A stretch of DNA of 64,000 nucleotides from Erythrobacter sp. AP23 (GTDB lineage: Bacteria > Pseudomonadota > Alphaproteobacteria > Sphingomonadales > Sphingomonadaceae). Of the stretch, positions 4,779-60,772 are shown one piece after another. The notes below the pieces were generated by a model. That model searched no databases and was not told the DNA's origin. It saw nothing but the letters and a program-made list of their open reading frames with translations. A program made the translations under genes and the position numbers. How positions within the stretch are numbered: position 1 is the stretch's first letter; every line of letters begins with the position of its first letter. The stretch is taken from contig NZ_LNBY01000001.1 of the NCBI RefSeq assembly GCF_001542855.1, positions 558,001-622,000 of the forward strand, read 5' to 3'.

Positions 4779-4826
4779 CTGTCCTTCATTCGTCATCCCA
4801 GCGAAAGCTGGGATCGCTGTCCTTCA
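4779..4826. repeat. 10-bp direct repeat bracketing the left GIY-YIG palindrome
   Basis: The sequence CTGTCCTTCA occurs at 4779-4788 and again at 4817-4826, immediately around the palindromic repeat at 4791-4817. A direct repeat tightly bracketing a palindrome is what a target-site duplication of an inserted REP-like unit would look like. It could also be local slippage; the right-hand palindrome at 5133 has no such repeat. Confidence 0.55.
4791..4817. repeat. REP-like palindrome, left copy of the GIY-YIG unit
   Basis: A 27-base element with the head CGTCATCCC followed by a hairpin (ATCCCAGC ... GCTGGGAT). The copy at 5133-5159 is its exact reverse complement over all 27 bases, so the GIY-YIG gene lies between perfectly inverted copies. 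Related elements with the same head or stem are at 18801-18825, 18867-18890, 35876-35893 and 37720-37737. Confidence 0.85.
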
Positions 4827-5108
4827 GCCGAATCGCTCGAAGAGGTCGTCCCATTCCGGGTTGGCGCGCTCAACAAGTTCGATCTTCCACGCGCGTTTCC
4901 AGGCCTTCATCGCCTTTTCGCGCGCGATTGCATCGGAGATATCTTCGTACTCCTCGGCATGGATGAGGCGCGTCAGGCCATAGCGACGACAGAATGCAGA
5001 TCCCTTGCCGCTGCGGTGTTGAACCATGCGGGCCGCAAGATCAGCCGTCACGCCAATGTACAGCACACCGTCCCGCCTGTTCGACAATATGTAGACCCAG
5101 CCACCCAA
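4824..5108 (-). CDS. GIY-YIG nuclease family protein
   Basis: This is a 94-residue single-domain GIY-YIG endonuclease-like protein (UPF0213/YhbQ-like size). The motif pair is visible as VYIL near residue 5 and LYIGVT near residue 17. Arg27 (in AARMVQHRSGKGSAF), the following His and a C-terminal Glu region complete a plausible active site. An in-frame TGA lies directly before the TTG at 5108, so TTG is the only upstream start; AAGG lies about 8 bases before it. The gene sits alone between ispE and the ETF oxidoreductase, enclosed by perfectly inverted 27-base palindromes. Its cellular role is unknown; the arrangement suggests a nuclease acting on its flanking repeats, which is inference. Confidence 0.9.
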   Translation of the reverse strand: MGGWVYILSNRRDGVLYIGVTADLAARMVQHRSGKGSAFCRRYGLTRLIHAEEYEDISDAIAREKAMKAWKRAWKIELVERANPEWDDLFERFG

Positions 5109-5132
5109 TCATGGACCTTCCATCATCCGCGA

Positions 5133-5159
5133 GCGATCCCAGCTTTCGCTGGGATGACG
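5133..5159. repeat. REP-like palindrome, right copy of the GIY-YIG unit
   Basis: Exact reverse complement of the 27-base element at 4791-4817. It lies between the GIY-YIG start (5108) and the stop of the ETF-ubiquinone oxidoreductase gene (5188). It could also act as a transcription terminator for the latter, but it has no T-run. Confidence 0.85.
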
Positions 5160-12190: not shown

Positions 12191-12232
12191 CCGCCCCCAC
12201 AGGGGGAGGGGGAACACGTAGTGGTGGAGGGG
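12191..12232. repeat. Palindromic repeat, left copy around the first DUF559 gene
   Basis: This repeat combines a C-rich/G-rich hairpin (CCCCC ACA GGGGG) with GGGGGAACACGTAGTGGTGG, the latter carrying an ACCAC-TAC-GTGGT-type dyad. The copy at 12621-12663 is its inverted counterpart, matching over about 33 bases with a few differences. It lies just after the radical SAM stop and just before the DUF559 start. Confidence 0.8.
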
Positions 12233-12240
12233 CACATGCT

Positions 12241-12615
12241 ATGATCACCGGATCACGCGAAACGATCAAGCGAGCACGCCAGCTTCGCAGCGAGATGAGC
12301 GTGCCCGAGCGGCTTCTATGGCAGCACCTTCGCAAACGTCCGGGCGGGTTCAAGTTTCGACGCCAGCACCCGGCTGGCATCTATGTGCTCGACTTTTACT
12401 GCGCGCGGCTGCGATTGGCCGTCGAGGTCGATGGATGGGCGCACGACAGCGTTAAGACGATCGCGAGGGACAGACAAAGGTCGGCATTCCTCCGGTCGCA
12501 GGGCATTGCCACGACGCGCATTCCGGCGAAGGCAGTCTTGGACAGTGTTGAAGCCGTGATGGTTCGGCTTGCCGATATTTGCGAAGCGCGGGCGGATGGT
12601 CTCTTGAGCCGGTGA
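12241..12615 (+). CDS. DUF559 (Vsr-like) endonuclease-domain protein
   Basis: This 124-residue protein is a single DUF559 domain, a PD-(D/E)xK-type fold related to very-short-patch repair endonucleases. Family landmarks are SVPERLLWQHLR (Glu early in the domain), GFKFRRQHPAGIYVLDFYC (Asp of the active site) and LAVEVDGWAHD (ExD pair). The ATG at 12241 begins just after a palindromic repeat; a longer frame back to 12085 overlaps the radical SAM gene and is shadow. It may be read through from the LexA-controlled gene upstream. Inverted repeats enclose the gene. A second DUF559 gene with a different repeat is at 60308-60772. Its biological role is unknown. Confidence 0.9.
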   Translation: MITGSRETIKRARQLRSEMSVPERLLWQHLRKRPGGFKFRRQHPAGIYVLDFYCARLRLAVEVDGWAHDSVKTIARDRQRSAFLRSQGIATTRIPAKAVLDSVEAVMVRLADICEARADGLLSR

Positions 12616-12620
12616 GGGTA

Positions 12621-12663
12621 CCCCTCCACCACTACGTGGTCCCCCTCCCCGTTCCGGGGAGGC
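12621..12663. repeat. Palindromic repeat, right copy around the first DUF559 gene
   Basis: Inverted counterpart of 12191-12232: CCCCTCCACC, then the dyad ACCACTACGTGGT, then a second hairpin CCCC-GTTC-CGGGG. It ends exactly at the stop codon (12663-12665) of the convergent DUF1330 gene, so it might also serve as a bidirectional terminator. Confidence 0.8.
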
Positions 12664-27577: not shown

Positions 27578-28984
27578 CTACGGTTTGCTGGCCTTGTACG
27601 CGTCAAGCGCCCGTTCGCGCGCTTCCTTGTGCCCGATTATCTTGGCCGGATAGTCGCCACGCTTCTCGTCGGGCGGGTCGTGGATTTCGCTGTCGTCCAG
27701 TTCGGCAAGCTCGGGAATGTATTCGCGGATGTATCCTGCCGCGTCGAACTTCTCACTCTGCGTGAGCGGGGCCATGATGCGGCTGAACATATTGCTGTCG
27801 ACGCCGGTGCCCGAAATCCACTGCCAGTTGACGCCGTTATTGCCATAATCCGCATCGACGAGACAGTCCCAGTACCATTGCTCGCCGAAGCGCCAGTCGA
27901 TCAGCAGGTGCTTCACGAGGAAGCTCGCCGCGATCATCCGCACGCGGTTGTGCATCCAGCCGGTCTGCCACAGCTGGCGCATCCCGGCATCGACGATGGG
28001 GTAGCCGGTCATGCCACGCTGCCAGCATTCGAGGTCTTCGCGGATGAGGTGCCCCGCATTGGGGTTCCGCCACAGCCTGCGTTCGTCATAGTCGCGGTAG
28101 CTCTCGCGCGGATAGTCGGGAAACTGGTCGATCACGTTCTGCGCATAATCGCGCCAGATGATCTCCTTGGCATAGGTCTTCCAGCCGTCGGAGCGCTTGT
28201 CCTTGAGCTTGTGCCAGACCTGCGCGGGGCTGATCTCGCCCCAGTGCAGATGCGGCGACAGGCGCGAGGTGATGTCGTCCGAGGGCAGGTTGCGGCCCTC
28301 GTCATACTCGGCGACCTGGTCGGTCCACCAATCCAGGCGCTCATGCGCCGCCGCCTCGCCGAATTCCCAGAAGTCGCGGATGCCGCTTGCCCAATCGGGT
28401 TTTGTCGGGAGTAGGCCCCAATCTTCGAGCTTATCGCTTTCAGGCCAGCTATCGGGCGAATGGATCGTCCCGGGTTCGGGCAGCGGATCGCGCGGGGGCA
28501 TGACCTCGAGCATCGCCTTCGAAAACGGCGTGTAGATCTTGTAGGGATCGCCCGATCCGGTCGTCACGCTGCCCGGGGGGAGCAGGTAATTGCCGTCGTA
28601 GAGGCACAGCTTGCGGTCCTCGCCCCCCAAACTCGAAAGTGCATCGCGCAGCTCGTCCTCGGCCTCCTTCCACCACGGCTCGTAATGCCGCATCGCGTGG
28701 ATGCAGGAGGCCCCCACCTCGTCGGCGATGGATGCGAGAATCTGCGGGGCATGGCCCTTGCGCAGCACGATCTGCGAGCGGCGGCTGCCCAGCGACTTGC
28801 CGAGGCTTTGGAGCGAATGGTGCAGCCACACCTTCGAGGCGCCGCCATAGGCATGATCGCCCGCGCGCGCGTCGTCGAGCACATAGACCGGAATGACGGG
28901 ACCGGCCTGGGCCGCGGCATGGAGCGCGGGCTGGTCGGCCATGCGCAGATCGCGCCGCAGCCAGACGATTTGGGGTGAAGTCAT
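27578..28984 (-). CDS. phrB: Deoxyribodipyrimidine photolyase
   Basis: This light-driven flavoenzyme splits cyclobutane pyrimidine dimers. The 468-residue protein begins MTSPQIVWLRRDLRMADQPAL, the usual photolyase/cryptochrome opening. The FAD-binding domain shows SRLSPHLHWGEISPAQVW, WRDYAQNVIDQFPDYP, and the C-terminal DRWFGEQWYWDCLVDADYGNN-type segment with WQWISGTGVDSN. Starts at 28984 and 28996 are both possible. A longer frame to 29044 reads into a repeat (giving CPSSEEEG) and is rejected. It lies 41 bases upstream of cfa. Confidence 0.95.
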   Translation of the reverse strand: MTSPQIVWLRRDLRMADQPALHAAAQAGPVIPVYVLDDARAGDHAYGGASKVWLHHSLQSLGKSLGSRRSQIVLRKGHAPQILASIADEVGASCIHAMRHYEPWWKEAEDELRDALSSLGGEDRKLCLYDGNYLLPPGSVTTGSGDPYKIYTPFSKAMLEVMPPRDPLPEPGTIHSPDSWPESDKLEDWGLLPTKPDWASGIRDFWEFGEAAAHERLDWWTDQVAEYDEGRNLPSDDITSRLSPHLHWGEISPAQVWHKLKDKRSDGWKTYAKEIIWRDYAQNVIDQFPDYPRESYRDYDERRLWRNPNAGHLIREDLECWQRGMTGYPIVDAGMRQLWQTGWMHNRVRMIAASFLVKHLLIDWRFGEQWYWDCLVDADYGNNGVNWQWISGTGVDSNMFSRIMAPLTQSEKFDAAGYIREYIPELAELDDSEIHDPPDEKRGDYPAKIIGHKEARERALDAYKASKP

Positions 28985-28996
28985 GACGCTCCTCAT

Positions 28997-29137
28997 CCCC
29001 TCTTCTTCAGAGGAGGGGCAACGAGACTTGGCTTTGCGCAGCAAACCCTAGTCGCAGTGGGGTGGTGAGAGCGGCACGCGCGGCGCTCGCGCGCCGCCAC
29101 CACCCCCAACCCCCTCCTCTGAAGAAGAGGGGGCTTT
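28997..29137. repeat. Inverted doublet of the DUF559-2 palindrome (gene-less, REPIN-like)
   Basis: The left arm (28997-29018) is CCCCTCTTCTTCAG plus AGGAGGGG. The right arm (29098-29137) is inverted and is identical over 40 bases to 60721-60760 beside the second DUF559 gene. Directly before the right arm is a hairpin GCGGCGC-TCGC-GCGCCGC (29080-29097). The same position beside the DUF559 gene has GCGTCTC-TGGC-GAGACGC, so the stem sequence differs but pairing is kept. The 79 bases between the arms hold no gene. Confidence 0.85.
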
Positions 29138-29151
29138 CATGCCGAACCTGC

Positions 29152-30093
29152 CTACTGCGCCGATAGTTCCTCACATTCCACATCCGGCAGCGCAACGGCG
29201 AAACGGTCTCGGGCGCGGGGATCGTAGAATCGCGCATCGCGTAGGATCATCGAGCCGTCGGACGCGCGTTCAGCGAAGGGGGCGCGGGACCAGAAGAGGA
29301 AGGCATCGAGTTCACCATTGTCTTTGCGCAGCCGGTTCATGTCGGGCCATGCGCAACGATCTCGGGTAATGCGCTCCATCTTGAAGGTCTTGGGGTCCTT
29401 GACCCACCAATCGTTCTCGATTCCGACGATTACCTCGCGCTTCCACGAGAGCAGCGGCATGGGACTTGCGATGGCAATCTGTCCCGGCAGATAGGGTGCG
29501 TCGTACCGCGCAGTTCCTGCAAACGACGAAATCACCCCATTCACCCCAATGTACACCAGCGCCACCGCTATCGCCGCACGCGCCGGTCGCTGCCACTCCT
29601 CGCCCCGCTTTTCGCGCCGCAGCGAGAACCAGGTCGCGAAGCCCAGCAGCGCCCACAGCCAGACGTCGATGATGAACAGCGTGTCGCCATAATACCATTG
29701 CGACGAAAAAGGTTCGAGCAGGCGAATGCCGTAGACGTTGAGCCAGTCGAGCGCCGGGTGGGTCAGGCAGGCGATGAAGCTCAGCAAGTAGAGCCACTTG
29801 AGGTCCACCGGCAGCCGTCCAGCTGGCCGCGTGCCACGCTTCGCCTGCCAGCGGTCGAAGCCGTAGAGCAGCCCCGCCAGGACCATCGGCAGAAGCACCC
29901 AGGCGATCGGCCCATGGGTGATCCCGCGGCGGAAACCGAGATGCTCGACCCCCTCCAGCCAGAAGAGGCAGGCGGCGTCGACATCGGGAAGGTTCGCGCC
30001 GATAATCAGCGCGGGCATGGCAAGCCCGGTCTTCCGCTTGAGCCCCGCCTGTCCGATCAGCGCCCCGACGAGGCTGTGTGTCAAATTGTCCAT
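29152..30093 (-). CDS. YdjM-type membrane-bound metal-dependent hydrolase
   Basis: This 313-residue inner-membrane protein has the family opening MDNLTHSLVGALIG and the histidine/aspartate pattern NLPDVDAA, GFRRGITHGPIAW and CLTHPALDWLNVYG. Together these are typical of the YdjM/DUF457 metal-dependent hydrolase group. Several hydrophobic segments follow (WVLLPMVLAGLLYG, WLYLLSFIACL, WLWALLGFATWF). The substrate is unknown for the family. It ends next to the REPIN-like doublet and is not clearly in an operon with the photolyase gene. Confidence 0.88.
   Translation of the reverse strand: MDNLTHSLVGALIGQAGLKRKTGLAMPALIIGANLPDVDAACLFWLEGVEHLGFRRGITHGPIAWVLLPMVLAGLLYGFDRWQAKRGTRPAGRLPVDLKWLYLLSFIACLTHPALDWLNVYGIRLLEPFSSQWYYGDTLFIIDVWLWALLGFATWFSLRREKRGEEWQRPARAAIAVALVYIGVNGVISSFAGTARYDAPYLPGQIAIASPMPLLSWKREVIVGIENDWWVKDPKTFKMERITRDRCAWPDMNRLRKDNGELDAFLFWSRAPFAERASDGSMILRDARFYDPRARDRFAVALPDVECEELSAQ

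Positions 30094-58124: not shown

Positions 58125-60771
<2,647 letters not shown>

Positions 60772-60772
<1 letters not shown>

Follow-up and report, generated by a model that had tools for sequence, protein, structure and literature searches.

Repeats of the REP type are common in the intergenic DNA of bacteria, and in the MITEs of bacterial insertion sequences a gene-less copy shares its ends with a gene-carrying copy. The REPINs and RAYTs of Pseudomonas and Escherichia coli have been described as intergenic inverted doublets that form a hairpin in single-stranded DNA, with flanked gene loci and non-autonomous copies (PMC3116915). A 2013 survey reported that CGTC-tagged REPs, commonest in Alphaproteobacteria, are intergenic and mostly head-to-head dimers there, apparently without a dedicated transposase (PMC3733652), and the main text of the 2025 RepRanger paper contains no words beginning with nuclease or transposase (PMC12306157). 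Among the enzymes relevant here, Vsr is described as acting at the T:G mismatch in CCWGG sites, and VsrA of Caulobacter as a DUF559-domain protein and putative mismatch-repair enzyme that leads to an SOS response in cells without a cytosine methylase (PMC12907096). The homing endonuclease I-Bth0305I, deposited as a mobile intron protein, is described as multi-domain (PMC3943268). The Pfam entry of DUF559 still reads 'Protein of unknown function,' and among the papers listed from full-text searches of the open-access literature, no title or start of an abstract links DUF559 to repeats.

In the window, a stretch of 64,000 nucleotides of Erythrobacter sp. AP23, positions 28997-29137 are a gene-less, hairpin-forming relative of the repeat that brackets the DUF559-2 nuclease gene in the same genome. 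The doublet is flanked by a DNA photolyase gene and one of the YdjM family, which are co-directional on the minus strand. Like REPINs, it consists of inverted palindromes with a spacer that fold as a hairpin in single-stranded DNA, it has dispersed copies in one genome (four gene-less doublets here), and gene loci of its family are flanked by related repeats. It differs from REPINs in that the family is linked to a predicted PD-(D/E)XK/Vsr-like nuclease and in that a CTAG hairpin containing a T.T mismatch is part of its arms. The layout of inverted doublet, spacer, and single-stranded hairpin (PMC3116915) would also fit an ordinary REPIN mobilized by a Y1/RAYT transposase. However, this genome has no Y1_Tnp match, and a Y1 gene was found in only one of the 10 genomes tested (G044). 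Mobilization by a RAYT was therefore rejected as very improbable; it is contradicted here unless a diverged Y1 gene was missed.

The doublet also resembles the CGTC REPs in being an intergenic palindrome pair of Alphaproteobacteria, but its sequence is a different one without the CGTC tag, and in the doublets inspected by eye no unpaired GTAG or CGTC tag stood beside the palindrome P1 that forms the arms. The pair around a GIY-YIG unit at 4791-5159 does begin with CGTC. As in MITEs, the gene-less doublet has ends in common with a gene-carrying copy, the DUF559-2 unit, but its left arm is unlike that of the unit, no target duplication was seen, and no transposase was identified.

Architecture and copies of the doublet

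The elements of the doublet follow each other in the order P1, CAACGA, GACTTG-stem-loop-CTAGTC, GCAGT, GGGGTGGTG, spacer, CACCACCCC, CAA, P1, and CTTT (Table 1). As single-stranded DNA it is predicted to fold with -57.2 kcal/mol, compared to -27.3 ± 3.1 kcal/mol for shuffled sequences (z = -9.7). In the predicted fold a 22-bp pairing of the arms (loops counted) closes a junction from which the CTAG hairpin and a GTGGTG/CACCAC hairpin extend. The other three doublets of this genome were predicted to fold on the same plan (-44.8 to -47.6 kcal/mol), so that the outer stem and both hairpins are predicted in all four.

Table 1. Features of the doublet, of its gene-less relatives, and of the DUF559 units (window coordinates unless a contig, C1 or C14, is given)
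Feature	Coordinates	Strand	Remarks
Left (L) arm, palindrome P1, CCCCTCTTCTTCAGAGGAGGGG	28997-29018	+	pairs over 22 bp with right arm
CTAG hairpin, GACTTG-(stem-loop)-CTAGTC	29025-29053	+	T.T mismatch
GGGGTGGTG	29059-29067	+	inner hairpin, 5' side
7-bp stem GCGGCGC/GCGCCGC of the initial annotation	29080-29097	+	copy-specific, not conserved
Right (R) arm: CACCACCCC, linker, P1 (29110-29133), CTTT	29098-29137	+	CACCACCCC is inner hairpin, 3' side
DUF559-2 gene (P0001), between recN and ligA	60308-60772	-	reading frame through both arms
R-type arm of DUF559-2 unit, ligA side	60312-60352	-	
Second 7-bp stem, GCGTCTC/GAGACGC	60703-60720	+	inside DUF559-2 coding sequence
R-type arm of DUF559-2 unit, recN side	60721-60760	+	same 40 bases as 29098-29137
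Second DUF559 unit, gene 12241-12615	12203-12650	+	different repeat; arms 12203-12232 and 12621-12650
Gene-less doublet	C1:185107/185218		
Gene-less doublet under study	C1:586999/587116		28997-29137 of window
Gene-less doublet	C14:10542/10655		
Gene-less doublet	C14:12905/13017		

The initial annotation of the window had pointed out that the R arm, 29098-29137, is identical over 40 bases to 60721-60760 in the DUF559-2 unit, that an inverted partner arm lies at 28997-29018, and that each site has a hairpin of a 7-bp stem and a 4-base loop beside this core; all three observations were confirmed. With the adjoining bases included, 29080-29137 and 60703-60760 align over 58 bp with 91% identity. 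By eye, the doublet at C1:185k also has the exact 40-mer, the third such copy, and contig 14 has one that matches at 39 of 40 bases. In the 3.4-Mb genome the 15-base core of P1 was found exactly at nine places and with one mismatch at one more. These 10 sites make up five inverted pairs, namely the four gene-less doublets, with cores 111 to 117 bp apart, and one DUF559 unit. With 10 sites in five pairs, the repeat is not limited to the two places first noticed.

A chance likeness of two GC-rich stretches is hardly credible in view of these counts. The sequence is GC rich and palindromic, and a reversed control pattern had 10 sites compared to 17 for the core when up to two mismatches were allowed. 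However, the nine exact core sites compare to none for the reversed pattern, every site lies in an inverted pair once the one-mismatch site is counted, and the z value of the fold likewise speaks against chance, which can be regarded as already refuted. The seven further core sites with two mismatches were not paired in such doublets, and an inverted partner within 260 bp was missing for 18 of 51 P1 arms, including two that flank a DUF559 gene.

The 7-bp stem itself had been taken as evidence for a preserved fold, since paired changes seemed to maintain it. This view had to be given up. Only two of eight arms have the perfect stem, those of the 28997-29137 copy and the DUF559-2 R arm, and the folds of the C1:185k and first contig-14 doublets have a stem of only 4 bp, with large internal loops. 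Among six orthologs of the DUF559-2 unit, in which the stem is coding sequence, there was no covariation, and one of the six breaks the stem.

Covariation was instead detected in the CTAG hairpin, a feature that had gone unmentioned. The comparison comprised 24 distinct 24-base hairpins from fetched loci, with the outer six bases fixed by the search pattern and hence uninformative. In these relatives 96.8% of cells pair (80.2% when shuffled), and the covariation score of 0.399 compares to 0.104 ± 0.021 for shuffled sequences and was reached by 0 of 500 shuffles. The score fell to 0.14 or less when the partner was slid by one to three columns. Two of five covariation measures were not above the shuffles; pairs changed on both sides numbered four (reached by 385 of 500 shuffles), and further pair types numbered eight (207 of 500).

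Stems with one free middle position carried a T.T mismatch in 44 of 53 cases beside the P1 palindrome versus 17 of 441 elsewhere in the same loci, a count with a built-in bias, as a T.T-containing pattern had been used to collect most of the loci. Seven T.T variants nevertheless fall outside that pattern, with the second or sixth pair changed and compensated (GACTTA..TTAGTC, one; GCCTTA..TTAGGC, two; GCCTTG..CTAGGC, three; GGCTTG..CTAGCC, one). By eye, three of the nine matches without T.T were the same hairpins on the other strand and six were other palindromes.

The doublet had been proposed to be a non-autonomous derivative of the nuclease unit, and this proposal holds in part. The doublet family is tied by sequence to the DUF559-2 unit through common terminal arms (the 40-base core of the R arm, and P1 in both arms), its members lack the gene, and gains are evident (see below). 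However, the doublet does not have both arms as in the unit or an interior derived from the gene. Both arms of the unit are of the R type and a CTAG hairpin is lacking, whereas a gene-less doublet combines an R arm with an L arm that has the extra GACTTG...CTAGTC hairpin. Matches between the DUF559-2 gene and the interiors of the four doublets extend over 8 to 13 bases only, as expected by chance. Because the left arm differs and the interior matches so little, the doublet is not merely the unit minus its gene, and a simple internal deletion was rejected, no gene remnant having been found.

Relatives of the doublet were also seen on plasmid records, one from Sphingopyxis (NZ_CP076395.1:353386-353514; 72.7% identity over 94%) and one, a 38-base piece, from Novosphingobium (NZ_CP140001.1:425885-425922). 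Half of the four doublets, two, are on contig 14, which is 22 kb long and also has a GIY-YIG gene, with other palindromes near.

Gain and loss among relatives

By its hits in named genomes, the window belongs close to Qipengyuania. The P1 15-mer occurs in 8 of 60 genomes of the genus, and DUF559-2 orthologs (75% identity or more) occur in 7. All 7 genomes with an ortholog have the 15-mer compared to 1 of the 53 without (Fisher, 2e-8), an association that is partly built in, mostly because the arms of the unit itself carry P1. Gene-less P1 doublets were present in two of the seven unit-bearing genomes and in one of the 53 others (Fisher, 0.03), which is the weak independent part. This genome (G000) has four of them; G203 has one exact doublet and a degraded one, together with no DUF559-2 ortholog; and G146 has one. 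In G146 the 15-mer is confined to the gene-less doublet, where one of the two arms has it, since a base is changed in the arms of the G146 unit.

Six orthologous DUF559-2 units were colinear. Identity is 99% in the left arm (100% at third codon positions) and 97% in the right arm (95% at third positions), compared to 79% in the gene (61% at third positions). The same loop change is found in both unit arms of G146, so the arms change together. The DUF559-2 neighbors are a RecN/SMC-type gene and an NAD-dependent DNA ligase gene. The DUF559-2 start codon overlaps the recN stop codon, and the reading frame includes both arms (translated as PSSSEEG and PSSEEEG); orthologs have a similar layout.

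An empty site is seen in G216, where recN-TAAC-ligA places the genes 4 bp apart. Among 24 relatives measured, the recN-ligA gap held the unit in 4, was 12 bp or shorter in 8, and held other sequence of 328 to 1,189 bp in 12. Gene ends were extrapolated from tblastn, and a distance was obtained for 24 of 30 recN-ligA and 29 of 30 photolyase loci. Whole DUF559-2 units come and go at recN-ligA, and DUF559-2 is inherited in place instead of jumping.

The comparison bears on another explanation, according to which the doublets are older repeats that spread by other means and the DUF559 genes are passengers homing into them, like REP-targeting insertion sequences. DUF559 resembles a homing endonuclease, gene-less doublets exceed units by 4 to 1 in this genome, and REPs are described as targets of insertion sequences (PMC1525189). 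However, where the gap is 12 bp or less, in 8 of the 24 relatives, the arms and the gene must both be missing, and arms and gene of DUF559-2 lie in one reading frame, the P1 copies being 420 bp apart in each of the five orthologs compared. Thus, it seems unlikely that the DUF559 genes are such passengers.

Gene-less doublets have come and gone as well. The doublet at C1:185k is absent from both relatives compared, G203 and G219, in which the doublet's place is taken by ∼70 to 110 bp of common native sequence that was replaced rather than cleanly interrupted. One contig-14 doublet is common to G203, and the other is not. No target duplication was visible in the species comparisons, from which the exact insertion points are not readable. 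At the photolyase-side site of 28997-29137, a different palindrome doublet is present in G203, a CGTCATTGCGAG-type pair in G219, and, with the site matched by eye, a CTAG doublet in G158 of another genus; in several relatives the gap is 2 to 48 bp long, and some have unrelated sequence. With differing palindrome doublets in L096, L099, L103, L106, and L030, the gap before the photolyase gene (28985-29152) looks like a preferred landing site.

Given its strong hairpin between two co-directional genes and an R arm that ends in CTTT, the doublet could instead serve the host at the RNA or DNA level (transcript end, mRNA stability, or supercoiling), with the nuclease link being secondary. However, 28900-29250 contained no terminator-like or promoter-like site and had no Rfam match at E 0.1, and an intrinsic terminator and a known RNA family were both rejected on these grounds. 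Five related loci gave only sub-gathering, microRNA-type Rfam matches. The variety of sequences that relatives have at the site also speaks against a host role, which would leave the enrichment near DUF559 genes unexplained, and we consider it quite improbable.

DUF559 genes, palindromic repeats, and the predicted nuclease

Inverted palindromes flank DUF559 genes in 23 of 31 loci, compared to 0 of 124 shifted control window pairs, when 250-bp flanks are compared and an inverted repeat score of 16 or more is required. The sample of 34 loci, 3 of which were too short, consisted of the five DUF559 matches of this genome and the best match of each of 29 other genomes, and was drawn from 135 DUF559 matches in the family genomes. 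The eight loci without a flanking inverted repeat at this threshold include three in this genome. In a second set of named genomes (55 of 62 loci used, with wider flanks; one observed window, L340, holds N), inverted flanks were present at 17 of 18 loci from Sphingomonadales and at 18 of 37 others (36 Bradyrhizobium and 1 Bauldia). Five of 220 control pairs scored high, all five in masked runs of N. By eye, some of the Bradyrhizobium arms share a plan of palindrome, TCGC, variable hairpin, and GCGGGGTGGGG.

Among the CTAG motifs listed from 59 family genomes with 135 DUF559 genes, 7 of 156 lie within 300 bp of a DUF559 gene, ∼50 times the 0.14 expected; these near pairs were counted by eye and number at least seven, as G042 matches were listed in part. 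G044 has CTAG motifs on both sides of one DUF559 gene. CTAG motifs number 49 in G042 and 23 in G001, chance matches included. The co-occurrence of DUF559 with many CTAG copies was dropped as an argument because 53 of the 59 genomes have DUF559 anyway.

The association is also seen when sequence is scanned without a prior search for nucleases. The 424 kb scanned, made up of the window, 20 kb from contig 14, 260 kb from G203, and 80 kb from G219, contained three inverted repeats of at least 40 bits with 200 to 1,000 bp between their arms. All three are in this window, and each encloses a DUF559 or GIY-YIG gene. The same 424 kb had six nuclease matches, of which three, all GIY-YIG and one of them partial, were not enclosed by such repeats. 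In these surveys the link between palindromic repeats and DUF559 is general.

GIY-YIG genes show a comparable arrangement. The gene at 4824-5108 (minus strand) lies between perfect 28-bp inverted repeats that start with CGTC, an arrangement that bears on the transposase reported missing for CGTC REPs. Inverted repeats of various palindromes flank 21 of 29 GIY-YIG loci of the family (29 of 30 loci used) compared to 1 of 116 controls, and CGTC or GACG is within the repeats of 8 of these 21.

DUF559-2 matched PF04480 with 104.9 bits, above the curated cutoff of 20.6. Its structure model (mean pLDDT, 79) resembled NGO0050 of Neisseria (Z = 16.0; 1.6 Å over 94), I-Bth0305I (Z = 11.9), and Vsr (Z = 10.1); with Foldseek alone, the match to Vsr was weak (E, 0.4 to 1). 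With a profile of 25 DUF559 sequences, the only PDB sequences matched at E 0.01 were NGO0050 (6e-37) and, weakly, I-Bth0305I (2.5e-4). D68, E79, and H85 were invariant in the 25 sequences. DUF559-2 is thus modeled as a nuclease of the PD-(D/E)XK/Vsr-like (EDxHD-type) fold, with the conserved acidic and histidine residues, related to I-Bth0305I and Vsr. In contrast to I-Bth0305I, it is a single small domain between palindromic arms.

VsrA shares the DUF559 domain, and it is possible that DUF559 proteins are very-short-patch repair or restriction-type enzymes whose flanks mark only gene exchange by recombination between repeats. The Vsr-like fold of the DUF559-2 model and the SOS response to VsrA in cells without a cytosine methylase (PMC12907096) are consistent with this. 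VsrA differs from DUF559-2 in being described as a putative repair enzyme; the available text of that source makes no mention of repeats flanking VsrA, and the stem 'palindrom' is absent from it. A repair enzyme alone would not explain the arms that change together, the gains of gene-less doublets, or the recurring T.T hairpin, and we therefore regard this explanation as improbable.

Proposed mobilization in trans and its meaning

We propose, with moderate confidence, that the doublet is a non-autonomous element of a DUF559-linked, REP-like family that is mobilized in trans by a Vsr-like nuclease. In this model 28997-29137 would be a REPIN-like element whose two inverted palindromic arms fold in single-stranded DNA to a three-way structure, and it would belong to a repeat family of Sphingomonadales in which gene-carrying members hold DUF559 between the arms. 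The nuclease would recognize the folded arm (P1 together with the T.T-mismatched CTAG hairpin) and would then nick or cut the arm, or cut a target, after which the element may be copied by repair or replication into another intergenic location. For gene-less doublets this copying would take place in trans, through DUF559-2 or a different DUF559 protein of the same cell. The T.T mismatch inside CTTG/CTAG is reminiscent of the T:G mismatch that Vsr recognizes in CCWGG, a likeness that is only suggestive.

The model draws on the arms shared by doublet and unit, the linkage of DUF559 to repeats, the structure and covariation of the arms and their joint change, gain and loss between species, and the nuclease fold; from these we infer recognition, cutting, and copying by DUF559. 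Several findings count against it. The L arm is absent from the DUF559-2 unit, G203 has a doublet and no DUF559-2 ortholog, target duplications were not seen, 8 of 31 DUF559 loci have no such flanks, DUF559-2 stays in place, and VsrA has been proposed to be a repair enzyme. On balance, the results suggest that the DUF559-2 nuclease or a similar one helps such repeats spread through bacterial genomes.

A broader proposal, which we consider possible rather than probable, is that small, free-standing nucleases of the homing type (DUF559, and GIY-YIG in the case of CGTC-type and other palindromes) replace RAYTs as the movers of REPIN-like doublets in Alphaproteobacteria, with the T.T hairpin as the mark of a Vsr-like enzyme. 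If so, these repeats would represent a separate class of bacterial mobile system, and the missing enzyme would be supplied for repeats that were reported without one. A Vsr-like enzyme that recognized a mismatch within a folded hairpin would open a new route to mobility, one that starts from mismatch repair. With doublets tied to two families of homing-type nucleases, the question of the CGTC REP transposase becomes directly testable, and a role is suggested for many members of DUF559.
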